A DNA stretch of 64,000 nucleotides, taken from NCBI GenBank assembly GCA_903828785.1, contig CAIKNP010000001.1:1-64000 (forward strand), read 5' to 3'. A program made the position numbers and the translations under genes. Under the pieces are notes generated by a model. It was not told the DNA's origin, did no database searches, and saw only the letters and a list, made by a program, of their open reading frames with translations. How positions within the stretch are numbered: the stretch's first letter is position 1; each line of letters starts with the position of its first letter. Shown here one piece after another: positions 4,175 to 44,020 of the stretch. This stretch comes from an uncultured Actinomycetes bacterium. GTDB lineage: Bacteria > Actinomycetota > Acidimicrobiia > Acidimicrobiales > RAAP-2.

Positions 4175-4293
4175 ATCGATTCGTTAGAGGACCGCTTCAA
4201 GGGGCGGCCGTACTCCTCTACGTCATTTTTTTGCCAGCGCTCATTGACCAGCGTTGGCGACTATCAAACGTCACCCCCCTATGGCCCCATTGA
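4150..4293 (+). CDS. Possible 47-residue membrane micro-protein overlapping both neighbours
   Basis: From GTG at 4150 a second frame is open to TGA at 4291-4293. It encodes a short basic N-terminus (VPSKLNRFVRGPLQ), one convincing transmembrane helix GAAVLLYVIFLPALI (about 18-32) and a short tail. It bridges the stop of the gene at 3755 and the beginning of the BTAD frame, overlapping each by 25-50 bases. Such overlap would favour translational coupling into the BTAD gene, which otherwise begins at a TTG with no ribosome site. Alternatively this is the true N-terminal helix of the BTAD protein displaced by a frameshift, or chance. Not recognised as a family. Confidence 0.3.
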   Translation: MDLVPSKLNRFVRGPLQGAAVLLYVIFLPALIDQRWRLSNVTPLWPH

Positions 4294-5773
4294 GCGAGCG
4301 CTCTTGATCACCTTGGCCGTGTTTTGGCTGGGAATCATACTGACGCTCGCCCTCACCGTTGTGCAGTTACGCCGGGGTCAACACCTGCGCCGCAGTGGCA
4401 TCGTGTGGATTGCCGGACTTCTCCTCTCCTGGTTCACCCTGGTGATGCCCGGCGTGGCATCTGCCGCGACACCACCGAGTTCCGCCCCTCAGGTGCAGCA
4501 GCATCAACTTGGGGCGCCGGCCCTCGCCCTGCCCTTCTTGCTCGCCGCGAAACGCCAACGAGATCATTCGCTCAAACCCGTTGACGACGAGGTGGTCGAT
4601 CAGGTGATTGCCGAACGTCAGGCCGTTGATCTCGCTCCCCTGCGGCGCCTCCGCCACTTCTTTGCGGCCGGAACTGCCGGGATCACCATGGTGCCAACCG
4701 ACTTCGATCAGTGGTCCGACGTGGACGACGAGGATCCGGTCGTCGTCTGTCGGGTGGGGGAACAAAACGGGATGACCGTGCTGGGCTACGCCCGCCCTGG
4801 GGCGGCCCTGCCCGTCCCCTCGCAGTGGTCCGCCAACCAACTCGTGGACAAACTCGTTGGCCTGCCCGATAATCGCTTGGTTTTCGCGTCAGACGAAGGC
4901 AGCCTCCTGCGGGCGCTGGCCACGCGCCAGCGACGAACCACCGTCGTTTACACCGGAAACCCCGCGGACATTGATGACGAACTGCGCGCGCTCTGCATCT
5001 CGCTACGTCCCGACGCCAGCGGCGAACCAACACCACCCGATCCGGTGACCGTTTCCGTGCTGCGCCCGGTCCCCATCGTCGTGGGATTAGCGGAGCCCTT
5101 CGCTTCGACCTTGCGGCGCCGGTGTGTGGAGATGGTGGCCTACCTCAGCGTGCACGACGATCCGGTGTCGGGTGAGCGCCTGCGTACACGGGTGCTGGCG
5201 CACGCTGAGGTTGACGCATCGAAGGGCACGCTGGCCAACACCGCGACCGCTATTCGTCGCAGTCTGGGCAGTGACGAACACGGCAGTCTCCTGCATCCGG
5301 TCACCGCAGCTGGTCTCTACCAACTGCACGGGGTGAAGTGCGACCTCACGAGCTTTCACCGTTACGTGGACCAGGGACGGCGCCAGCAGAGCTCGGCGGC
5401 GGCGGCTTCCTACCAGCGGGCCCTCGAGCTCGTGCGAGGTGAGCCCCTGTCGAGTGTGACCAAGGGCTACGACTGGTTCGTCCTCGAAGGTCACCGCGGC
5501 CGCATGCAACGTGATGGTGAGTGGGCTGCGCTCGCCCTCTACGACTACGCCCTGTCGGTGGGCAACGTCGATCGTGCCTTTTGGTCCCTCGAACGGGGAC
5601 TGCTGCTCGACCCCGAGAATGAACTCTTACGCGAAACGCTGGCGGAGGTACCGCGTCTACGCCAGTTTCGCGGCAATGGCGCTGGCCCCGCGAAGCACCA
5701 CTCCGTCAGCCCCCGCGGCGCTGTAGCGATGAGCGGGACGGTGCTGGGCCTCGGCGATGAGATCGGCCAATAA
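4244..5773 (+). CDS. Membrane-tethered BTAD-domain transcriptional regulator
   Basis: About 509 residues from TTG 4244. Two transmembrane segments lie at the N-terminus (ALLITLAVFWLGIILTLAL, then GIVWIAGLLLSWFTLVMP, within residues 19-76). A central cytosolic region of unclear fold follows. The C-terminal 190 residues contain a winged-helix-like stretch (VEMVAYLSVHDDPVSGERLR) and a bacterial transcriptional activation (BTAD) helical repeat domain ending in LERGLLLDPENELLRETL. Proteins of this architecture, often with LysM, occur in actinobacterial clusters for surface structures and secretion; no LysM is seen here. The start is uncertain: no ribosome site precedes TTG. The last 117 bases are antisense to the 3' end of the Ddl-like gene. 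Confidence 0.7.
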   Translation: MTSVGDYQTSPPYGPIERALLITLAVFWLGIILTLALTVVQLRRGQHLRRSGIVWIAGLLLSWFTLVMPGVASAATPPSSAPQVQQHQLGAPALALPFLLAAKRQRDHSLKPVDDEVVDQVIAERQAVDLAPLRRLRHFFAAGTAGITMVPTDFDQWSDVDDEDPVVVCRVGEQNGMTVLGYARPGAALPVPSQWSANQLVDKLVGLPDNRLVFASDEGSLLRALATRQRRTTVVYTGNPADIDDELRALCISLRPDASGEPTPPDPVTVSVLRPVPIVVGLAEPFASTLRRRCVEMVAYLSVHDDPVSGERLRTRVLAHAEVDASKGTLANTATAIRRSLGSDEHGSLLHPVTAAGLYQLHGVKCDLTSFHRYVDQGRRQQSSAAAASYQRALELVRGEPLSSVTKGYDWFVLEGHRGRMQRDGEWAALALYDYALSVGNVDRAFWSLERGLLLDPENELLRETLAEVPRLRQFRGNGAGPAKHHSVSPRGAVAMSGTVLGLGDEIGQ

Positions 5774-6766
5774 TTGCCCGAAGGGTAGTGGTGGTTCAAT
5801 GAAGAGGTACTTCGAGAGGGAACCGGGAATGGTGTTTACCTCGTTCACGTAGAGCTCGTCGTCATTACCCAGAAAGTCAATTCGCGCCACACCGCGAATG
5901 CCGGCCACGTTTACCAAGGCGCGGGCGGCCGAACGCAATTCTTCACTCTGCGCATCAGCGAGCAGGGCGGGGAGTTCGCGTGGAGCGCTGACCATACCCT
6001 CACCACCGACGTACTTGTCGCGATAATTCAAAATCTCCGCCCCCGCACTTCGACGAAGGGGTCGCTCGATGGACGAGAGTTGAACGACGGGGTAGGTACG
6101 AACGGCAATTTGTAGGTCGCTGAGATCGGCGCGAAAGGGTTCAACCACGCAGCCCAGGGCGAGGTGGGTGTTTACGCCGAGCCGGGCTTTTGCGGTAGCC
6201 AGATCCGCCACGACGTCAATGCCGATGGACGAGCCACCGAAGCGGGGCTTGAGAATGTAGGGACCCGCGAAGGGCAAGCTGGCCGTGTCGGCGGTGAGCA
6301 GGGCGCGTGGCAAGGTCGCAAGGCCGGCGTTGGCCACCACCGCTCCGAAGGCCCATTTGTCCATGCCTAAGGCCGCGCTCGCCACGCTGGGTCCAGTGTA
6401 GGCGAGACCCGCCAGGTCCAGCGTCGCTTGGATGGTGCCATCCTCACCGGGGCCACCGTGGGTCGCCAGTACCACGGTAGAAACATCCAGACGCCGATCT
6501 TTGCCCAAGCGCCCCCCCAAGGAGTAGAAACCCCCCTCATCGCCGAGTCGCAGACGAATCTCTTGGGCACCCCGCGGCAGACCATCAGCGAAGGCGGTGG
6601 CCTCGGTCTCGGGGGCGATCAGGAACATCGAGCCGGTTTTGGTCCAGTAGACACCCTGAACAGAAGAATCGCGCAGTGCCAGTTCGCGCAGAGCCAGGAG
6701 CCCCGTAAGGATAGAAATGTCGTGCTCGGGGGACGGGCCCCCAAATAGAACCGCTACGGACACCAC
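5657..6766 (-). CDS. D-alanine-D-alanine-ligase-like ATP-grasp enzyme
   Basis: A 369-residue ATP-grasp ligase of the Ddl family, which joins two D-amino acids (classically D-Ala + D-Ala) using ATP. Visible motifs: FGGPSPEHDIS at 8-18 (first-substrate site), THGGPGEDG at 102-110, ATP-grasp KPRFGGSSIG at 173-182, the omega-loop tyrosine in NYRDKY near 247, and NEVNTIPGS at 308-316. The tyrosine loop argues for a D-Ala rather than D-lactate acceptor. Third gene of an operon after the hydrolase and the membrane Mur ligase, 27 bases downstream of the latter. Starts at tandem GTG codons. The 3' end overlaps the BTAD gene by 117 bases on the other strand. It could be the sole Ddl or a specialised paralogue. 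Confidence 0.88.
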   Translation of the reverse strand: MVSVAVLFGGPSPEHDISILTGLLALRELALRDSSVQGVYWTKTGSMFLIAPETEATAFADGLPRGAQEIRLRLGDEGGFYSLGGRLGKDRRLDVSTVVLATHGGPGEDGTIQATLDLAGLAYTGPSVASAALGMDKWAFGAVVANAGLATLPRALLTADTASLPFAGPYILKPRFGGSSIGIDVVADLATAKARLGVNTHLALGCVVEPFRADLSDLQIAVRTYPVVQLSSIERPLRRSAGAEILNYRDKYVGGEGMVSAPRELPALLADAQSEELRSAARALVNVAGIRGVARIDFLGNDDELYVNEVNTIPGSLSKYLFIEPPLPFGQLLADLIAEAQHRPAHRYSAAGADGVVLRGASAIAAKLA

Positions 6767-6793
6767 AACCCTCTCTCGACGAATTCGACCTTC

Positions 6794-8356
6794 TTAAGGG
6801 TAGTGGTCGGGCAAGTCGTTGAGGTACAACACTGCATCGCCCTCACCCAGGTGGGCTCGCACCCACGCCACCGCGTCGTCGCGAGTAGCACAGCGACGAG
6901 CCGTCCCCTCACAGCCTTCCAGGAGCGCTCGGGCGTTGGTGCGGTTGACGATGATCAGTTCGGACCCGCCAGCCACAATTTTGCGGGCCAGCGTGGCGTT
7001 TTCACGGAACTGTTCGTGGCCGAGTTCAATCATCCCGGGCGTGACGACGACCCGCCTCCCTCGCAGGTCCAGATTCTCCAAGACGGCGAGTGAAGCGTGG
7101 GCGCTGGCTGGGTTGGCGTTGAACGTGTCATCGATCACCACCACCCCCGACGCTGCGGTACTTACGGTGGCGCGATTGGCGACGGGCGCAACGTCACGCA
7201 GCCGTGCCACGAGGGTGGACGTACTCAGCCCCACTTCGAGCGCGGCGGCAATCGCGCAGGCGAGGTTAGTGGGCTGAACACTGCTGAGCGGCTCGATAGA
7301 GGTGACCGTCACCCCATCAATGACAATGTCCCACTGGTCCCCGCGTACGGCCACCACCACGTCGGCCGTCGTCGTCGATCCGGCTGTTCGCACTCGCTTT
7401 TCGCCCAGTCGCGCGGGCCATCTCGCGAGGAGCGGATTATCGACGTTCACTATCACCGTGGTGGCGCGTTGGGTGATTTCAAACTTGGCGCGTTCAATCA
7501 CCTCGACCGAGCCCATGCGCTCAAGGTGCACCGGGCCTATGGCGGTAATCACCGCAATTGCTGGCGGGCACCAGGCGCAGAGCTCGGCAATTTCGCCGAG
7601 CCCGTAGGTGCCCATTTCGGCAATGAACACGGGCGTGCCCTCAGCCAGACCTTCGTTGATCGAACGGGAGAGTCCCGCTCGGTTGTTGAAACTCTTCGGC
7701 GTCGCGACGACGCCGTCCGGTCGAAGGAGGTCCGCCAAGTGGTTCTTGGTTGACGTTTTACCGTAGGAGCCAGAAATCGCCACCACGAGGGGCTGGACGA
7801 GCGCCAAGCGGCGCGCCGCCTGATCCACAAAGGCTTGGGCGCCACGTCGCTCCATTGGAGCCAGCAGGCGCACACTCACGCTCAGCAGTAGGGGCACCAT
7901 CCAGACCAGGAGGGCGACGGTGTACAGGCCCCCTCCGGCCAAGGTACCAAGCGCGGCCACCAGGAGAAAAAGCAGGACTGCGGTGATAGCCAAGCGACGC
8001 ACGCGTCGAGTCCAGTGCAGCGGCGATGTTCGGCCACGAACCGACAAACCCACTGGGCAGCAGAATCCGTACAGCAGGGAATCGACAATGACCAGATCCA
8101 GCAGTTTGAGTGCGGAGAAGACGAGGAGGAGGAGCAGGGCCACGTGCGTCAAGGTCACCGGTCGGCGAGAATTCGCCGAATCGTGCTTTCGTGGCGCCCC
8201 CACACCAAGGCTCGACCAACGCTCGAGGAAGAGTCGCATCGACGCAGCGTGGTAGTGCTCGCGTTGCAGCACTCGTAGCCAACGCAACATCTGGACCGCG
8301 AAGGCCGCCATCAGCAGTGTGTCGGCGACGACCTCGAGAGTGATGGAGTGCGTCAC
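6794..8356 (-). CDS. Membrane-anchored Mur ligase (MurF-like catalytic core)
   Basis: A 520-residue protein. Residues 1-165 carry three to four hydrophobic helices (about 8-26, 68-95, 121-140, 142-163) in place of the UDP-MurNAc-binding domain that opens soluble MurF. From about 185 a Mur ligase core follows: P-loop GSYGKTSTK at 196-204, then FNNRAGLSRSINEGL, IAEMGT near 245-250, and a C-terminal ligase domain with DDTFNANPASAHASL and VVTPGMIELG, the last two very MurF-like. The reaction would be ATP-dependent amide bond formation, perhaps adding a D-Ala-D-Ala-type dipeptide to a membrane-bound acceptor. GTG start overlaps the hydrolase stop by four bases (GTGA). The Ddl-like gene follows, supporting a dipeptide donor. 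Confidence 0.85.
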   Translation of the reverse strand: MTHSITLEVVADTLLMAAFAVQMLRWLRVLQREHYHAASMRLFLERWSSLGVGAPRKHDSANSRRPVTLTHVALLLLLVFSALKLLDLVIVDSLLYGFCCPVGLSVRGRTSPLHWTRRVRRLAITAVLLFLLVAALGTLAGGGLYTVALLVWMVPLLLSVSVRLLAPMERRGAQAFVDQAARRLALVQPLVVAISGSYGKTSTKNHLADLLRPDGVVATPKSFNNRAGLSRSINEGLAEGTPVFIAEMGTYGLGEIAELCAWCPPAIAVITAIGPVHLERMGSVEVIERAKFEITQRATTVIVNVDNPLLARWPARLGEKRVRTAGSTTTADVVVAVRGDQWDIVIDGVTVTSIEPLSSVQPTNLACAIAAALEVGLSTSTLVARLRDVAPVANRATVSTAASGVVVIDDTFNANPASAHASLAVLENLDLRGRRVVVTPGMIELGHEQFRENATLARKIVAGGSELIIVNRTNARALLEGCEGTARRCATRDDAVAWVRAHLGEGDAVLYLNDLPDHYP

Positions 8357-9108
8357 GCCAGTAACTCACGAACCGCGTCGACCAGTGCTGCGGGTGCCGT
8401 GGTCGGCAAAAGGTGACCGCAGTCGGCCACGCTACGTAGTCGGGTTTCCGAAGGGATGATTTCCTGCGCTCGCGTCGCCACCGCGAGAGGTACGGCCCTA
8501 TCATCGCTGCCCCAAATCAGCGCCACCGGACATCGCAATTGCGCCAGCTCCTGCTCGTAACTCTCGTTGACGGTGGCGACCAAAATGTCACGAAGCAGTC
8601 CCGAAGCGTTTCTATAGTCCAGCGAACCGAAGCGCTGGCGGGCCCCTTCCATGGTGGCTTCACTCACGAGTCCCCTTTGGCGCAACCAGCGAATCGCTCG
8701 GTAGCGCCACGGGGAGGCCTTGGCGGACTCGTGGCGCAACAGGGGCACGCCACTAAGTACCAATCCCGCTACTCGCTCGGGGTGCGTGGCGGCCACGCTG
8801 ACCGCCACCCGGCCGCCAAAGGAGTGTCCGACGATAAGGAGGTCGAACGCGGAAATCTCGTCCAGCACCGGGAGGAGAAGTTCGCCGTAGGCCCGAGCGC
8901 CGCCGGCAACCGTTGGTAAGGGTGAAGCGCCAAAACCAGGCAAATCAATGGCCACCGAACTAATGCCGTCCTCCACCAATGACGACGCCACGGCGGTGAA
9001 ATCGTGACTAGTCCGACCCCAACCGTGAAGAAACACCACGCGAGGTGGGCCCTCACCGAAGCGTTGGCCGAATACTTTTCCGTCTCCAAAGGCTTGCAGC
9101 ACAGTCAT
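8353..9108 (-). CDS. Alpha/beta hydrolase
   Basis: A 251-residue alpha/beta hydrolase with a full catalytic triad: oxyanion-hole HGWG near 28-31, nucleophile elbow GHSFGG (Ser near 96), acid in GSDDRAV (Asp near 203) and histidine in CGHLLP (His near 232). No signal peptide, so it is cytosolic. First gene of the operon with the membrane Mur ligase and the Ddl-like enzyme, overlapping the next start by four bases. Members are esterases, lipases, C-C hydrolases or peptidases; substrate is unknown. The context suggests work on a lipid-linked or peptide product of the same pathway, which is inference. It is divergent from the helicase gene at 9175. Confidence 0.85.
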   Translation of the reverse strand: MTVLQAFGDGKVFGQRFGEGPPRVVFLHGWGRTSHDFTAVASSLVEDGISSVAIDLPGFGASPLPTVAGGARAYGELLLPVLDEISAFDLLIVGHSFGGRVAVSVAATHPERVAGLVLSGVPLLRHESAKASPWRYRAIRWLRQRGLVSEATMEGARQRFGSLDYRNASGLLRDILVATVNESYEQELAQLRCPVALIWGSDDRAVPLAVATRAQEIIPSETRLRSVADCGHLLPTTAPAALVDAVRELLA

Positions 9109-11954: not shown

Positions 11955-12925
11955 AGGCCTAACTCCGCTATTCGTCGTTCGCTGTCTACGGTCATTAGTG
12001 AAAAGCTTCGCACGTCACCCCGCTTTAAGACATCGCGCGCTCGAGCGGGTGCGGGCGTGCCCAGATTAGTCGTGGGGGCGTAGCACTCAATGGCTTCACC
12101 ATTTTTAAGTGTGACTCGTATGACGGCACCGTGCGAGGTGAAGGCCAGCACTTCACCAAGTACCACGGAACCAATTTTCTGTTGTTTTAGAAAGAGCGTG
12201 AATGCCTCAAGCGGATTAACGGGTTGACGCCCCCGCCGAAGCACATCAGTGGAGGAGCTTGCTGGGCTCACCGGCGGCGCTGGAGCAACTTTCTTCACCG
12301 TTTTCTTCACGGGCTTCTTCGGGACGACCGGTTCACTAAGAACCTTGGCCGCCTTCTTCAGCGGTTTGGCCGCTTTCGTGGCCTTGGTCACCTTGCTCGC
12401 CTTGGCCGGAGTCAGGGTGTCGCCAATGGAGGGAGCGGCGGCTTCCGGAAGGGGAACCGCCACTTTCTTAACGCTGCGCGTCGCGCGCACCGCTTTGAGA
12501 CCGCGCACGGGCAGTCGCTCGGTGAAGATCCAGCCGACGCCCTTCACCGGTTTGCCGCCGATTAAGCGGCCGACATCGAAGAGCCACGGATACTCCTCAT
12601 GGAATTCCTGAAACGAATCGTTACTCAACACCACCGCGTTGATCCGTTGGGCGATTTTCAAGATGAAGGCGTCACCTCGCCCTATCGCCCCCGCGGGGGG
12701 CGTGACGATTTCACCCGCCGCTTCCGCTTCCTTAAAGCGCAAGCGCTCGCCGGCCGCGACGCGGTGTTCAAAACTCGCGTCCACCACCACAATCACGTCC
12801 GCCTTGGGGTACTCCTCAACAAATGACTTCACCGCTTCGTCAAGTTGGGCCAAATTCGGAATGCTGCGCCCCTCGGTCGCCAGGTTTGACCCGTCGACGA
12901 CAACGCGTAAGGAGGGGGCTTTCAC
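11951..12925 (-). CDS. NYN/Zc3h12a-type ribonuclease with basic linker and small C-terminal domain
   Basis: The likely start is GTG at 12925, overlapping the kgd stop by four bases (GTGA), giving 324 residues. Residues 5-140 form a PIN-like NYN nuclease of the Zc3h12a group with acidic residues typical of the metal site: VVVDGSN (Asp 11), VVVDASFEHR (Asp 49), GRGDAFI (Asp 85) and LSNDSF (Asp 103). Residues 150-225 are a Lys/Ala/Pro-rich low-complexity linker (AKASKVTKATKAAKPLKKAAK, PKKPVKKTVKK) resembling histone-H1 tails. Residues 240-324 look like a small beta-rich, OB/S1-like domain (VLGEVLAFTSHGAVIRVTL). Probably an RNA-processing or toxin-like nuclease; target unknown. A longer upstream frame inside kgd is ignored. 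Confidence 0.78.
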   Translation of the reverse strand: MKAPSLRVVVDGSNLATEGRSIPNLAQLDEAVKSFVEEYPKADVIVVVDASFEHRVAAGERLRFKEAEAAGEIVTPPAGAIGRGDAFILKIAQRINAVVLSNDSFQEFHEEYPWLFDVGRLIGGKPVKGVGWIFTERLPVRGLKAVRATRSVKKVAVPLPEAAAPSIGDTLTPAKASKVTKATKAAKPLKKAAKVLSEPVVPKKPVKKTVKKVAPAPPVSPASSSTDVLRRGRQPVNPLEAFTLFLKQQKIGSVVLGEVLAFTSHGAVIRVTLKNGEAIECYAPTTNLGTPAPARARDVLKRGDVRSFSLMTVDSERRIAELGL

Positions 12926-15900
12926 TGGAGCGCTCGGACCAGGAGGTCCGCTTGTTCCGCGGCGTGCACCAGACTTGACCCCGTAGCGGGACTGGCCGAC
13001 TCGGCGCGAGCGACGTGTCGCAGGGGGAGATCCGCCCACTGCGGTGAGCGCAGCAGGAAGGGCCAGGCCCCCATGTTCTCGGGCTCTTCTTGGAGCCACA
13101 CCAGCTCCTCCGCGGCGGGATACTTCGCCAACACTTGCCGCAGCGACTCCGCGGGCCAGGGGTAGAGCTGCTCGACGCGAACGACCGCGACTGAACCGAG
13201 CCCCAACTCATCGCGGCGCGCAATGGCCTCGAGCGAAACCTTTCCCGAGGCCAGTACCACTCGCCTTACCTCAGCACTCTTCACCGCCTCATCACTCAAC
13301 ACCCGCTGGAAGGAACCCGTGGTGAAGGCCGACAGCGGCGACCGCGTCGCCACCGCTCGCAGCATCGATTTGGGCGTGAACACCACGAGGGGCGTGACGT
13401 GCTCTCGACGTACTTGCGAACGAAGGAGGTGAAAATACTGGGCGCCAGTAGTGGGATTGGCGACGCGAATGTTGTTGCGGGCCGCGAGCGAAAGGAATCG
13501 CTCTATACGACCACTGGAGTGTTCGGGTCCCTGTCCCTCGTAGCCGTGGGGCAAGAGCATGACCAGCGAAGAGGTTTGTCCCCACTTATCCTCGGCCGCC
13601 ATCAAGAAATTGTCGATGATGATCTCGGCCCCATTGACGAAATCACCAAATTGTGCTTCCCAAGCGACGAGGTCGTGCTTCGCCTCGACGGCGTAGCCGT
13701 ACTCAAAACCCAAGACCGCGTACTCACTCAAGAAGGAGTCGCGCACGGTGAAGAAGCCCGGCGAATCCAAATTGGATAAGGGAATGTACTGCTCGCCAGT
13801 CGTGTGCGAAATGAGGGCCGCGTGACGGTGCGAGAAGGTGCCTCGTCGCGAGTCCTGTCCCGTTAAGCGCACGTTGGTACCCTCGAGAACGAGCGAGCCA
13901 AAGGCCAAGGCCTCGGCGAGCGCCCAATCAACCTCGCCCGCGGCGAGTAACTGGCGGCGCTGCGCAAACTGACGCTCCAGTTTGGGGTGCACCGCAAAGC
14001 CCTCCGGCGCGGACATCGTGGCCTCCGCCACGCGCAGCAGTAGCGACTCATCAACCCCCGTATCGAGGGGTGCTTCGTCCCCACGCACGTCGGCGTTGGG
14101 CACGTGATCTAGTTCGGGTACCGGCACCGTTCGCACTTCGTCCAGCACCGACTGCAGGCGGTTGTTGAACTGTTCGAGCGCGGCCTCGACCTCTTCCAAG
14201 GTGAAGTCGCCTCGGCGCACCAGACTCTCGGTGTACACCTTGCGCACTGAGCGCATCTGGTCAATCAATGCGTACATCAGGGGCTGGGTGTAACTGGGGT
14301 CGTCGCCCTCGTTGTGGCCGTAGCGACGATAACAAACGATGTCGATGACCACGTCTCGCTGAAAGGTTTGCCGGTAGTCGAGCGCCAGACTGGCGGCGCG
14401 GGCGCAGGCCTCGGGGTCATCACCGTTCACGTGAATAATCGGCGCTTGGATCATCTTGGCCACGTCGGTGGGATAGAAACTCGATCGAGCCGATTCGGGT
14501 GCCGTGGTGAAGCCCAACTGGTTATTGATCACGATATGAATCGTGCCACCGGTGCGAAAGCCCGACAGTTGGGAGAGATTCAAGGTTTCGGCAACCACGC
14601 CCTGTCCCGCGAAGGCGGCGTCGCCGTGGATGAGGATAGGGAGGAAGGGGAAGTGATTCGCCCCCGGCACGCTGCCGGTGCCGTCGCTCGGCCGCACGAC
14701 GCGATCCTGCTTGGCGCGCACTAATCCTTCGACCACCGGCGACACGGCCTCCAGGTGGGAGGGGTTCGACGCCATTGAGATGGCAATACTGGCTCCCCGT
14801 GGATTAGTGAAGGTGCCTTTGGAGCCCTTGTGGTACTTCACGTCACCACTCCCCTGCACGCTCTCGGGGTCAAGGTTGCCTTCGAACTCCGAGAAAATGT
14901 CCGAGTAGGACTTGCCCACTACGTTGGCTAACACGTTGAGTCGTCCGCGGTGCGCCATGCCGACCACCGCTTCTCGCAGCCCCAGGTCGGCGGCGGCGTC
15001 GAGGATGGTTTGCAGCGCGACAATGGTTGATTCGCCACCCTCGAGACCGAATCGCTTCTGACCGACGTAGCGTGAGTGCAAGAAGCGCTCGAATACTTCC
15101 GCTTCACTAAGGGCGCTGAGGATACGTCTCTGCTGCTCGGCCGAGACTGAAACATCGACACCCTCAACGCGATCTTGAATCCAGCGCTTCTGCGCCGGGT
15201 CCATGATGTGACCGTATTCAATACCCATGGTGCCGCAGTACGCGTCACGCAGAATGGACAAAATCCTTTCCAGGGTCGCCTCGCGCAAGCCCGCTACGCC
15301 GTCCACGACGAAGACACGAGACAGATCCCACATGGTCAGTCCGTATGAAGCAAGGTCCAACTCGGGGTGCAGGTGGGGCGGCTCGGAATTGAGCGGATCG
15401 AGGTGCGCGTTCAGGTGCCCGCGCACCCTATACATGTTGATAATTTCTTGCACGCGAATTTGCTTCAGGATTCGTTCAGCGTCGTCCTCGCGCACGGGAT
15501 TGCGGTCTCTGGCGAACTGGGCGGGTTCGTAGGGCGCGCCCAAGGAAGAGAAGATGCCCTCGTAAAAGCCGTGGCCACCGTTGAGGCATTCCGCAACGTA
15601 CTTTAGGAACAATCCCGATTCGGCCCCTTGAATAATGCGGTGATCGTAGGTCGAGGTGAGATTCATAATTTTGCCGACGCCCATCTCGGCCAAAACGCGA
15701 GGATCGGCTGACTCAAATCCGGCGGGCCAGGCGAGAGCGCCGACGCCGATGATGGCTCCTTGCCCCATCATCAATCGGGGAACGGACTGGACGGTTCCTA
15801 GGGTGCCCGGGTTCGTCAGTGTCAAAGTAGCTCCGACAAAGTCATCAGCGCCCAGGGCGCCGGCGTGGACCTTGCGAACCATGTTCTCGTAGGCCAGGAG

Positions 15901-16518
15901 AAAGTCGCGGAAGCTAAGGGTGTCGGCGTCTTTGATCACCGGTACCACCAGGTTGCGCGACCCGTCGTTTCGTTCCACGTCAACCGCGAGCCCCAAACCC
16001 ACGTGTTCGTTACGTCGAACCCCGGGCGTACCCTTTTCATCAACCGCCTCAACAAATGCAGCGTTGAGTGATGGGATGAGCACCGCCGCTCGGACCACGG
16101 CGTAGGCAATGATGTGCGTGAAAGAAACTTTCGCGCCCGTCGTGCGCGCTAGAGCGTCGTTCAAGGCCGAGCGATTAATTTCCAAAAGGCGAGCGGGAAC
16201 GCTGCGTACCGAAGTCGCGGTGGGGACACGGAGTGATTCCGTCATGTTGCTCACAATGCGCGCGGCCGCTCCTCTCAGAGGAGTCGCCTCGGAGTCGATG
16301 AGAAGTGCTGCGGGCGGCGTGGCCGAGGGCGAAGCGCTTTTCGAGGGGGACACCGGCAGGGCGGAGGGTTGGTAGTCGGCAAAAAACTCGCGCCAGCTCG
16401 CGCTCACCGACGACGGATCGGCAATGAACTGCTCGTAGAGATCATCCACGAGCCACGCGTTGGGCCCAAAAGCGCCGCTGCGGGCTCGGGAATCGGAACT
16501 TTCGAGGGGATTCGTCAC
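12922..16518 (-). CDS. kgd: Multifunctional 2-oxoglutarate decarboxylase/dehydrogenase E1 (Kgd)
   Basis: A 1198-residue ThDP enzyme decarboxylating 2-oxoglutarate in the TCA cycle. An N-terminal E1 leader (AWLVDDLYEQFIADP) is followed by an E2-like succinyltransferase domain at about 85-320 with DHRIIQG at 292-298 (His 293), then the E1 core: MAHRGRLNVL near 521-530, GDAAFAGQGVV from 632, and the transketolase-type C-terminus to 1198. This E2-E1 fusion without its own lipoyl domain is characteristic of actinobacteria; the lipoyl carrier is the separate SucB at 56860. GTG start. First gene of the minus operon continuing into the NYN nuclease (GTGA overlap). Length matches Mycobacterium Kgd (about 1230). 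Confidence 0.96.
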   Translation of the reverse strand: MTNPLESSDSRARSGAFGPNAWLVDDLYEQFIADPSSVSASWREFFADYQPSALPVSPSKSASPSATPPAALLIDSEATPLRGAAARIVSNMTESLRVPTATSVRSVPARLLEINRSALNDALARTTGAKVSFTHIIAYAVVRAAVLIPSLNAAFVEAVDEKGTPGVRRNEHVGLGLAVDVERNDGSRNLVVPVIKDADTLSFRDFLLAYENMVRKVHAGALGADDFVGATLTLTNPGTLGTVQSVPRLMMGQGAIIGVGALAWPAGFESADPRVLAEMGVGKIMNLTSTYDHRIIQGAESGLFLKYVAECLNGGHGFYEGIFSSLGAPYEPAQFARDRNPVREDDAERILKQIRVQEIINMYRVRGHLNAHLDPLNSEPPHLHPELDLASYGLTMWDLSRVFVVDGVAGLREATLERILSILRDAYCGTMGIEYGHIMDPAQKRWIQDRVEGVDVSVSAEQQRRILSALSEAEVFERFLHSRYVGQKRFGLEGGESTIVALQTILDAAADLGLREAVVGMAHRGRLNVLANVVGKSYSDIFSEFEGNLDPESVQGSGDVKYHKGSKGTFTNPRGASIAISMASNPSHLEAVSPVVEGLVRAKQDRVVRPSDGTGSVPGANHFPFLPILIHGDAAFAGQGVVAETLNLSQLSGFRTGGTIHIVINNQLGFTTAPESARSSFYPTDVAKMIQAPIIHVNGDDPEACARAASLALDYRQTFQRDVVIDIVCYRRYGHNEGDDPSYTQPLMYALIDQMRSVRKVYTESLVRRGDFTLEEVEAALEQFNNRLQSVLDEVRTVPVPELDHVPNADVRGDEAPLDTGVDESLLLRVAEATMSAPEGFAVHPKLERQFAQRRQLLAAGEVDWALAEALAFGSLVLEGTNVRLTGQDSRRGTFSHRHAALISHTTGEQYIPLSNLDSPGFFTVRDSFLSEYAVLGFEYGYAVEAKHDLVAWEAQFGDFVNGAEIIIDNFLMAAEDKWGQTSSLVMLLPHGYEGQGPEHSSGRIERFLSLAARNNIRVANPTTGAQYFHLLRSQVRREHVTPLVVFTPKSMLRAVATRSPLSAFTTGSFQRVLSDEAVKSAEVRRVVLASGKVSLEAIARRDELGLGSVAVVRVEQLYPWPAESLRQVLAKYPAAEELVWLQEEPENMGAWPFLLRSPQWADLPLRHVARAESASPATGSSLVHAAEQADLLVRALQ

Positions 16519-42283: not shown

Positions 42284-44020
42284 GTGTTAAAGAAAGTGCT
42301 GATCGCTAACCGCGGAGAAATTGCCGTTCGGGTTATGCGCACCTGTCGCGAAATGGGCATTGCCACCGTGGCCGTCTATTCAGAACTCGACCGCGACGCC
42401 CTGCACGTGCGTCTCGCCGACGAGGCCTACGCCCTCGGCGGGCAGACGGCCGCTGACAGCTACCTCAATACCGAGGCCATTCTCGACGCCATCGCCAAGT
42501 CCGGGGCCGACGCGGTACACCCTGGCTACGGCTTCTTTTCGGAGAACACCGACTTCGCTCGCGCCATTACCGCCATGGGCGTGACCTTCATTGGGCCACC
42601 CCCTGAAGCCATCGAAGTCATGGGTGACAAGATTTCCTCACGAGTCGCCGCGGCCGAAGCCGGTGTGCAGGGCGTTCCCGGTCGCAACGACACCCTGACT
42701 GACCCCGCCCAGGTCGTCGCCTTCGGCGAGGAATTCGGTTGGCCGGTCGCGATCAAGGCCGCCTACGGCGGTGGTGGGCGTGGCATGAAAGTCGTCAACT
42801 CCGCCGACGAAGCGGCCGCGGCGCTGGAATCAGCCATGCGCGAATCGCTCAGCTACTTCGGCCGCAGTGAGTGTTACGTCGAGCGTTACCTGACCTGGCC
42901 CCGTCACATTGAGATGCAGGTCCTGGGCGACCAGCACGGCAATACCTTGTGGCTGGGCGAACGCGACTGCTCCGCCCAGCGTCGCCACCAGAAACTGGTG
43001 GAGGAATCACCGGCTCCGAACTTTCCCGACGAGGTGCGCCGCGCCATGGGCGAAGCCGCGGTCAAGGTGTCGCGAGCCTGCGGGTACTACAACGCGGGAA
43101 CGGTCGAGTTCCTGTACCAAGATGGCGATTTCTTCTTTCTCGAAATGAATACGCGCCTGCAAGTGGAGCACCCGGTGACCGAACTGGTAACGGGGCTCGA
43201 CCTCGTCGAATGGCAGCTGCGCGTGGCGGCCGGCGAGGCCCTCAGCTTCGGGCAAGATGACGTGCAACGCCTGGGGCACGCTATCGAGGTACGCATTAAC
43301 GCCGAGGACGCGGCCGGTGGCCGCTTCTCCCCTTCGCCCGGCACCCTGACCTCCTTCACGGCGCCTTCGGGTCCCGGCGTGCGACTCGACGCCGGCTACG
43401 AAGCGGGTGACACCGTTTCCCAGTTCTACGACAACCTGATCGCCAAACTCATTGTCTGGGGCCCCGACCGCGACCGAGCTCGCCGTCGCATGTTGCGCGC
43501 CATTGAGGAAACCGTTATCACCGGCGTCGCCACCACCTTGCCCGCTGACGTCATCATTTTGAGTGATGACGAATTCGTCGCGGGCACTCACTCCACCAAG
43601 TGGGTGGAAACGAATCTCGACTTTTCTTCCATCACCTCACCGGCCGCCTCGGCGGTCAGCGCGGAAGGTCTGGTGCGACGTGACGTGCTCGCCGAAGTGG
43701 ATGGCAAGCGCGTGTCGGTTTCGCTCTTCGTTCCCGAATTTGAAGGCGCGTCTCGCCCCGTCGCGCCCAGCAAGTCACGGCGTGCGCCAGCGCCCGCCAG
43801 TGGGGGCTCGGGCAGCGTTACCGCACCGATGCAAGGTACTATCGTGAAAGTTTCCGTCGAGGTGGGACAGTCCGTCGACGCCGGTGACGTCATTGTAATT
43901 TTGGAGGCCATGAAGATGGAAAACACAGTGCTCGCTGCTCGCAGCGGAACCATTTCTGCCGTTGCGGTAGCCGCGGGTGACGCGGTCAACGCCGGTGATC
44001 TCGTGGCGGAGATTTCGTGA
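42284..44020 (+). CDS. Acyl-CoA carboxylase alpha subunit: biotin carboxylase fused to BCCP
   Basis: A 578-residue fusion. Residues 1-450 are biotin carboxylase ([24 protein letters not shown]-grasp [26 protein letters not shown]). The end is a biotinyl domain with EAMKMENTV, biotin acceptor Lys544. In actinobacteria such alpha subunits (AccA3 type) pair with separate carboxyltransferase beta subunits for acetyl-, propionyl- or longer acyl-CoA; none is in the window. GTG start with CCGGAGGG upstream. It is divergent from birA and its stop overlaps the M20 gene start (GTGA), so it heads an operon. Confidence 0.95.

Follow-up and report, generated by a model that had tools for sequence, protein, structure and literature searches.

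How does a bacterium add the last two residues to its cell-wall stem peptide when its only MurF-type ligase lacks the domain that reads the usual substrate? This question is raised by three adjacent genes in the first 64,000 nucleotides of contig CAIKNP010000001.1 (assembly GCA_903828785.1, from an uncultured Actinomycetes bacterium), the whole of which we refer to as the window. On its minus strand, an alpha/beta hydrolase, a membrane-anchored MurF-type ligase and a D-Ala-D-Ala ligase (Ddl) are encoded in this order. A first-pass annotation, made from the sequence alone, had described these genes as one operon, with GTGA coupling of the first two and a 27-base gap before the third, and both the coordinates of the open reading frames (ORFs) and their Pfam domains agree with this description. 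We think that the operon is probably the housekeeping MurF/Ddl module of this organism, integrated into the membrane, and that, once MraY has acted, it attaches D-Ala-D-Ala to a tripeptide linked to the membrane.

The catalytic part of the ligase is that of a MurF. Its Pfam domains are Mur_ligase_M (residues 194–332) and Mur_ligase_C (398–510). Against the murF model TIGR01143 it scores 195.1 bits, over profile positions 59–402 of 418; this is below the NCBI cut-off of 288.6, a curated threshold at which annotation overlooks the membrane ligase. The MurT model NF052464 gives only 20.9 bits, against a cut-off of 800. In an AlphaFold2 model of the ligase (with 91 relatives; pLDDT 94.0, pTM 0.91), the closest solved folds are MurF structures, namely 3zl8 (Z 28.1, root-mean-square deviation (rmsd) 5.3, 362 aligned), 4cvm (Z 27.0, rmsd 4.8, 329 aligned) and 4qf5 (Z 26.6, rmsd 5.0, 366 aligned), while MurT ranks lower (9sq9, Z 21.4, rmsd 4.1, 322 aligned). 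With canonical MurF the ligase shares the ATPase and C-terminal domains, the P-loop, E247, H277, K291 (the lysine that is carbamylated in Mur ligases), R395, D410, N413 and P416, the last two within FNANPASAHASL at residues 412–423. Because these core residues are common to both enzymes, the ligase very likely carries out ATP-driven amide formation. The MurF-like core with a P-loop at residues 196–204 that the annotation had recognized is thus borne out by Pfam, residue alignment and fold matches. The two types are nevertheless distinguishable, as the KGSR of 42 canonical sequences corresponds to ENDLPD in the membrane type, and LG(D)M to TPGM.

The N-terminal part of the ligase is entirely different. 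No Mur ligase N domain (PF01225) was found in the Pfam scan of the window protein, and no Pfam family matches this part of it. In the AlphaFold2 model, residues 1–187 form seven helices, starting at residue 2, and no strand, and the domain modelled alone (pLDDT 92, pTM 0.85) is likewise all helical. On the evidence of the model, we reject a hidden uridine diphosphate (UDP)-binding domain in the ligase. The first-pass annotation had read membrane helices in place of the UDP-MurNAc domain and named structure prediction as a check; the Pfam result and the helices-only model uphold that reading. Against the PDB, the membrane domain has no Foldseek match at E ≤ 0.001 (best VIA Z 3.5), which does not imply a novel fold. 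Hydropathy and charge across the family point to some five membrane passes. The N-terminus would be outside, and the loops 23–68 and 99–118, which are basic, are probably cytosolic, on the same side as the catalytic domain. Since the helices at 69–82, 86–99 and 143–152 are short (10–14 residues in the model), the number of passes is unsure, and some could be re-entrant. Four loop residues, Q31, Y35, T116 and R118, are invariant in the 91 aligned sequences and in all 153 of the 153 that reach this region.

Two relatives depart from this layout or bear on the nature of the domain. A 472-residue membrane ligase (L061, from genome G009) is without the middle hairpin, that is, the second and third passes. 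In one of eight further ligases scanned (L109), residues 92–157 weakly match Pfam DAGK_prokar (E 0.001, below the cut-off), a family that includes undecaprenol kinases. We also considered that MurF might be split, its N domain being encoded separately, and rejected this: no stand-alone UDP-binding domain was found in the genome, in a search that returned MurC, MurE and one sub-cut-off match in an ORF of 1115 amino acids and that was not fully sensitive, as MurD's own N domain escaped it.

The genome to which the window belongs (1.56 Mb in 28 contigs, 96.5% complete) appears to depend on this ligase. Its six Mur_ligase_M matches are MurE, MurC, MurD, MurT, FolC and the window ligase, which is the sole MurF type. 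There are two Ddl-domain matches, of which a Ddl-specific search finds one, the Ddl of the triad; the second PF07478 match, at 42284–44020, is judged from its sequence to be a biotin carboxylase-type ORF, not a Ddl. The first-pass annotation had raised a separate D-dipeptide pathway and had suggested a search for a second murF/ddl set, noting that without another murF or ddl these would be the housekeeping enzymes. That search found none in this nearly complete genome, so the proposal of a second pathway here has to be given up and the triad is best regarded as the housekeeping MurF/Ddl pair. An FtsI-type transpeptidase is present, so D-Ala-D-Ala stems are presumably needed, and the MraY matches TIGR00445 at 308 bits, as an ordinary member of that family.

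murF often stands between murE and mraY. In this genome the division and cell wall (dcw) genes run in the order rsmH-ftsL-ftsI-murE-mraY-ftsW-murG-murC-murB-ftsQ-ftsZ, and the 7 bases that separate murE from mraY leave no place for a murF (MurC, MurE, MraY and the FtsI-type protein were named by profile scan, the others by eye). A canonical murF could merely be missing from an incomplete draft in 28 contigs, but this explanation is extremely improbable, as the dcw cluster is intact across the murF slot and the same pattern recurs in 47 of 119 genomes of the class, including a single-contig genome (G014) with only the membrane form.

These 119 genomes of the window's class were searched with TIGR01143, with matches listed down to about 115 bits. 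Full-length MurF above the cut-off is found in 68 of them and the membrane form in 47; four are unclear (G013, G092, G097 and G036), and none has both forms among the matches listed. The 47 consist of 45 short-profile matches and two partial ones, G069 and G074, identified from fetched loci. All 47 loci were inspected (the window, 40 loci and 6 more), and three of the ligases are cut at contig ends, G087 being without its membrane part and G115 and G074 without their C-termini. The membrane and canonical forms also alternate elsewhere. The class of Peptoniphilus stercorisuis (118 genomes, including the seed G145) divides into 98 canonical genomes, 18 with the membrane form and 2 without a match, and a phylum sample (149 genomes, 13 of them common to the class survey) into 133 canonical, 11 membrane and 5 other; 0 of 118 and 0 of 149 genomes have both forms among the matches listed, which extend to about 143 and 167 bits, respectively. 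The motifs are carried by the 17 non-seed membrane matches of the former and by 9 new ones of the latter.

Pooled, and with the seed and shared genomes excluded, the surveys cover 372 genomes, comprising 288 canonical, 73 membrane and 11 unclear or with neither form, and 0 of the 372 hold both forms among the matches listed. Except for the truncated G069 and G074, the membrane forms in the surveys score at least 168 bits, and a weaker one beside a canonical enzyme could escape. Fisher tests for the three surveys give 1e-26 (with 45 membrane genomes in the class), 1e-18 and 6e-11, values that are indicative only since the genomes are related. Swaps over a short evolutionary range carry more weight: the switch can occur within a genus, with the membrane form in G009 and canonical MurF in G067 and G094, and the Ddl is swapped along with it.

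A GTDB scan with the ligase returned at least 575 relatives. The best 80 of these come from Actinomycetota, Chloroflexota, Bacillota, Bacteroidota, Pseudomonadota (Alphaproteobacteria), Cyanobacteria, Bdellovibrionales, Omnitrophota, Poribacteria, Rhodothermaceae and other groups, and the nearest named relative among them is in an Acidimicrobiaceae metagenome-assembled genome (L083). When these 80 are combined with the 40 class loci, 114 of the 120 have at least 140 residues before the P-loop together with an N(D/N)L(P/T) end motif; several of the other six, which do not have the full features, are cut by contig ends. When the shared core is placed in a maximum-likelihood tree (97 rows, in which the MurC/D/E outgroup rows form long branches), the 45 membrane-type rows form one clade (100/100), which the canonical MurF clade adjoins (48 rows, 97/86). 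The single membrane-type clade speaks against repeated independent fusions, and the membrane ligases look like one old family that has been moved and kept.

The two partner genes travel with the ligase. The annotation had suggested asking whether the triad is conserved, and it largely is: of the 120 loci, 111 have a neighbouring hydrolase gene on the same strand, 98 a ddl gene and 92 both, several of the misses being contig ends. At 36 further loci (of which L244 repeats L087), the hydrolase is near and on the same strand in 35 and the Ddl in 33. The hydrolase and ligase genes overlap by 4 or 1 base in 36 of 40 loci (L043–L082). The window hydrolase has the alpha/beta hydrolase fold and a Ser-Asp-His triad, with the nucleophile in GHSFGG, the acid in WGSDD and the histidine in CGH; GHSFGG, the Asp and the His are kept in at least 90% of 112 aligned triad hydrolases, which also carry the family motif GS.DY..a.g.mR. 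Our best guess for its role, which we put forward only weakly, is that it acts in editing, hydrolysing peptide adducts that are wrong or have stalled.

The window Ddl matches Dala_Dala_lig_N and Dala_Dala_lig_C above their cut-offs (67.8 and 62.3 bits), and TIGR01205 at 168 bits, below the cut-off of 245.65. Like the Ddls of that family it has both Pfam domains and the active-site residues; E14, K137, K173, K251-Y252, R295, D297, E309, N311 and S316 are common to it and 14 canonical Ddls. We examined switching of the Ddl in 23 chosen genomes of the class, 12 of the 68 canonical and 11 of the 47 membrane-type ones. The 12 canonical genomes have a Ddl over the cut-off (307–346 bits), and some of them (G034, G093, G039 and G067) have weaker extra Ddl-like matches. 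Each of the 11 membrane-type genomes, the window's and 10 others, has exactly one Ddl at E ≤ 1e-15, which is of the triad kind and below the family cut-off (147–197 bits), even where it is not adjacent to the ligase (G071, G111 and G033). MurF and Ddl types are therefore mismatched in 0 of the 23 chosen genomes. Bacillota triad Ddls can exceed the cut-off (304 bits in G146; 269–300 bits in G145, G195, G248 and G511), so there the score alone is no marker.

How, then, would the membrane ligase work? The usual MurF step uses a UDP-linked substrate (PMC6420597). In the mechanism that we propose, MraY would act before the MurF-type ligase and convert UDP-MurNAc-tripeptide, giving a lipid I or lipid II tripeptide as the acceptor. 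The Ddl would make D-Ala-D-Ala, and the ligase, held in the membrane by its passes and using ATP, would join this dipeptide to the third residue of the stem tripeptide, with its basic loops lying where the pyrophosphate is. We infer a membrane-linked acceptor because the UDP-binding domain is missing and because the invariant Q31, Y35, T116 and R118 lie in loops predicted to be basic and cytosolic; the missing UDP domain and the presence of a membrane domain also support the annotation's simplest model, ligation onto a membrane-linked acceptor. That D-Ala-D-Ala is the added unit, with MraY preceding MurF, is likewise our inference, the former because the Ddl keeps KY and the other residues listed above and because Peptoniphilus isolates are vancomycin-susceptible. 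In one study, 30 of 30 clinical Peptoniphilus isolates were vancomycin-susceptible (PMC8398781). As 5 of 5 genomes of the genus of P. stercorisuis (G145) carry the membrane form only, this susceptibility fits D-Ala-D-Ala ends. Another study reports susceptibility in 81 of 81 anaerobic cocci, with Peptoniphilus harei making up 28% (PMC4698780).

A housekeeping MurF of this kind might instead still act on UDP-MurNAc-tripeptide, its membrane domain being a tether beside MraY for product hand-over. We regard this as unlikely, although it deserves serious attention: it would accommodate the kept core residues of the ligase and the ordinary MraY, but the UDP-binding domain is gone with no stand-alone one found, and a plain anchor would not require that polar residues stay invariant in both cytosolic loops throughout many phyla. 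MurT, moreover, provides a precedent for losing the UDP-binding domain alongside a lipid-linked substrate. According to its structure paper, this lipid II-acting enzyme is without the N-terminal UDP-binding domain, which it does not need and which would probably collide with the membrane, and its N-terminus has only about 35 residues (PMC6113224). The window ligase resembles MurT in being a Mur ligase without that domain and, as proposed, in acting on a lipid-linked stem. It differs in its partners, as MurT pairs with GatD, whereas the window ligase has a hydrolase and a Ddl and no GatD next door, and it is nearer to MurF by sequence and fold.

Extending the membrane-linked acceptor to the whole family, our assessment tilts towards the membrane MurF being a single ancient family, spread over many phyla, that shifts the D-Ala-D-Ala step to the lipid stage. 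In bacteria that depend on it, UDP-MurNAc-pentapeptide (Park's nucleotide) would then never be made, MraY would transfer the tripeptide, the order of the two steps would be reversed, and the Ddl and hydrolase would form a dedicated module with the ligase.

Several observations weigh against the interpretation of the triad as a lipid-stage D-Ala-D-Ala module. The C-terminal domain of Mur ligases binds the incoming amino acid, and it is here that 7 of the 8 fixed changes relative to canonical MurF are found. In addition, 102 triad Ddls have extra residues following KY and are four residues shorter in the PGFTxxS loop (NTxPG[FTxx]S), in which the F and T columns are gaps, while they are filled in 13 and 14, respectively, of 14 canonical Ddls. 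Together, these changes mean that the dipeptide is possibly held differently, or that it is another dipeptide. The latter alternative, in which the co-evolved Ddl supplies a D-dipeptide other than D-Ala-D-Ala and the stems have unusual ends, would also fit the joint switching of ligase and Ddl, with 0 mixed pairs in the chosen genomes. We nonetheless consider it quite doubtful, given that the Ddl keeps E14, K251-Y252, R295, N311 and S316, that an FtsI-type transpeptidase is encoded in the same genome, and that Peptoniphilus isolates are vancomycin-susceptible (PMC8398781). The vancomycin-tested isolates and the membrane-MurF genomes are, however, linked by genus name only. Finally, Q31, Y35, T116 and R118 could serve the fold instead of a lipid.

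Further contrary evidence comes from genomes with more than one MurF. We searched for a second MurF in the genomes of 50 of the 80 named loci. In 36 of them the membrane form is the only MurF-type match above 160 bits, and two are unclear (G151 and G155). A cultured organism with the membrane form as its only MurF found is Blastochloris sulfoviridis DSM 729 (G140), which gave a single match at E ≤ 1e-25. Three also have a stand-alone canonical MurF over the cut-off: Nocardioides sp. YR527 (G125), Sporosalibacterium faouarense (G146) and a Sphingomonadales (G142). Both kinds of Ddl are present in G125, which has a third, and in G146, while G142 has one clear and one weak match. Such genomes, two of the three with two Ddls, are what favours a second D-dipeptide pathway beside a normal MurF/Ddl pair, and in these three a separate pathway may exist. 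For the window, this explanation is very improbable, as the searches of its genome yielded neither another MurF nor another Ddl, and those of the membrane-form relatives in the three surveys no second MurF among the matches listed. The other 9 of the 50 genomes have a MurF half in an ORF of ~790–1074 amino acids, two such matches being under 160 bits. These ORFs are of the size of the MurF-alanine racemase fusion NF008897, the racemase assignment being by size only, and the genomes in which they accompany the membrane form belong mostly to Bacteroidota; in the tree, the halves L175, L176, L180 and L182 fall in the canonical clade and L181 outside both clades. A survey of Bacteroidia (90 genomes, 87 over the cut-off) is uncounted above, since its matches were listed to 278 bits and the membrane form there scores about 230–250 bits, so that co-occurrence in this group would not be visible.

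MurF, MurT and Ddl are known, and the best fold matches of the ligase, as well as its place in the genomes, are those of MurF. It differs from MurF in being without the UDP-MurNAc N domain, in lying outside the dcw cluster here, in forming a triad with its own Ddl and in belonging to a separate clade. We found no description of a membrane-integrated MurF, of a clade of such enzymes replacing the canonical one, or of the triad in the open-licence PMC literature, where the name clashes with that of muscle MuRF and absence is thus a weak indication. The order in which MurC-D-E-F are followed by MraY and then by MurG is generally presented as universal. With a clade that replaces MurF in several phyla but has no UDP-reading part, the order of this core pathway becomes an open and testable question, and the fact that the sole presumed D-Ala-D-Ala-adding enzyme found has swapped its soluble substrate domain for a membrane domain suggests that one textbook cell-wall step takes place on the membrane and not in the cytosol. 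Inhibitors that target the UDP-substrate site of MurF can be expected to fail against bacteria with the membrane form. The triad also gives an alpha/beta hydrolase family a clear functional setting, and the three genomes with both forms (G125, G146 and G142) offer an opportunity to study the function of the triad beside a canonical MurF.

Coordinates of the triad and its features within the window
Feature	Position	Strand	Basis
Alpha/beta hydrolase, 251 amino acids, triad gene 1	8353–9108	-	Pfam Abhydrolase_1, 90 bits
GTGA shared by hydrolase stop and ligase start	8353–8356	-	sequence
Membrane-anchored MurF-type ligase, 520 amino acids	6794–8356	-	Pfam, TIGR01143, AlphaFold2 model, fold matches
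N-terminal helical membrane domain, residues 1–187, replacing UDP-MurNAc domain	7796–8356	-	models, hydropathy, charge (passes predicted)
QREHY motif, residues 31–35, Q31 and Y35 invariant	8252–8266	-	alignments, loop charge
TxR motif, residues 116–118, T116 and R118 invariant	8003–8011	-	alignments, loop charge
P-loop GSYGKTSTK, residues 196–204	7745–7771	-	sequence; common to canonical MurF
K291 of ligase	7484–7486	-	K in 0.99 of 115 membrane-type and 1.0 of 42 canonical sequences
C-terminal (E)NDLPD motif, LNDLPD here; KGSR in canonical MurF	6806–6823	-	alignments
27-base gap between ligase and Ddl	6767–6793	-	sequence
D-Ala-D-Ala ligase, 369 amino acids, triad subfamily	5657–6766	-	Pfam Dala_Dala_lig_N/C; TIGR01205
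Ddl K251-Y252 (KY of D-Ala-D-Ala ligases), followed by subfamily insertion	6011–6016	-	alignment
Ddl PGS (314–316), with four-residue FTxx deletion relative to canonical NTxPGFTxxS	5819–5827	-	alignment

Other Mur enzymes of the genome deserve mention. On contig C9 of this genome, murD directly follows a murL homologue (L012:751–3292; NF041275, 288 bits, cut-off 700). This pair suggests the MurD2/MurL route of L-Glu addition plus epimerase as a second rewired Mur step in the same genome. On contig C19 of the genome there is a MurT homologue (L010:1654–2934; NF052464, 139 bits, cut-off 800), and given this homologue, lipid-stage amidation of the stem may also take place in this organism.

Within the window, a convergent plus-strand ORF (4244–5773) shares 117 bases (5657–5773) with the 3′ end of ddl. 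Farther away, a long minus-strand ORF at 12922–16518 resembles, by eye, a 2-oxoglutarate dehydrogenase of the Kgd type whose N-terminus is E2-like.

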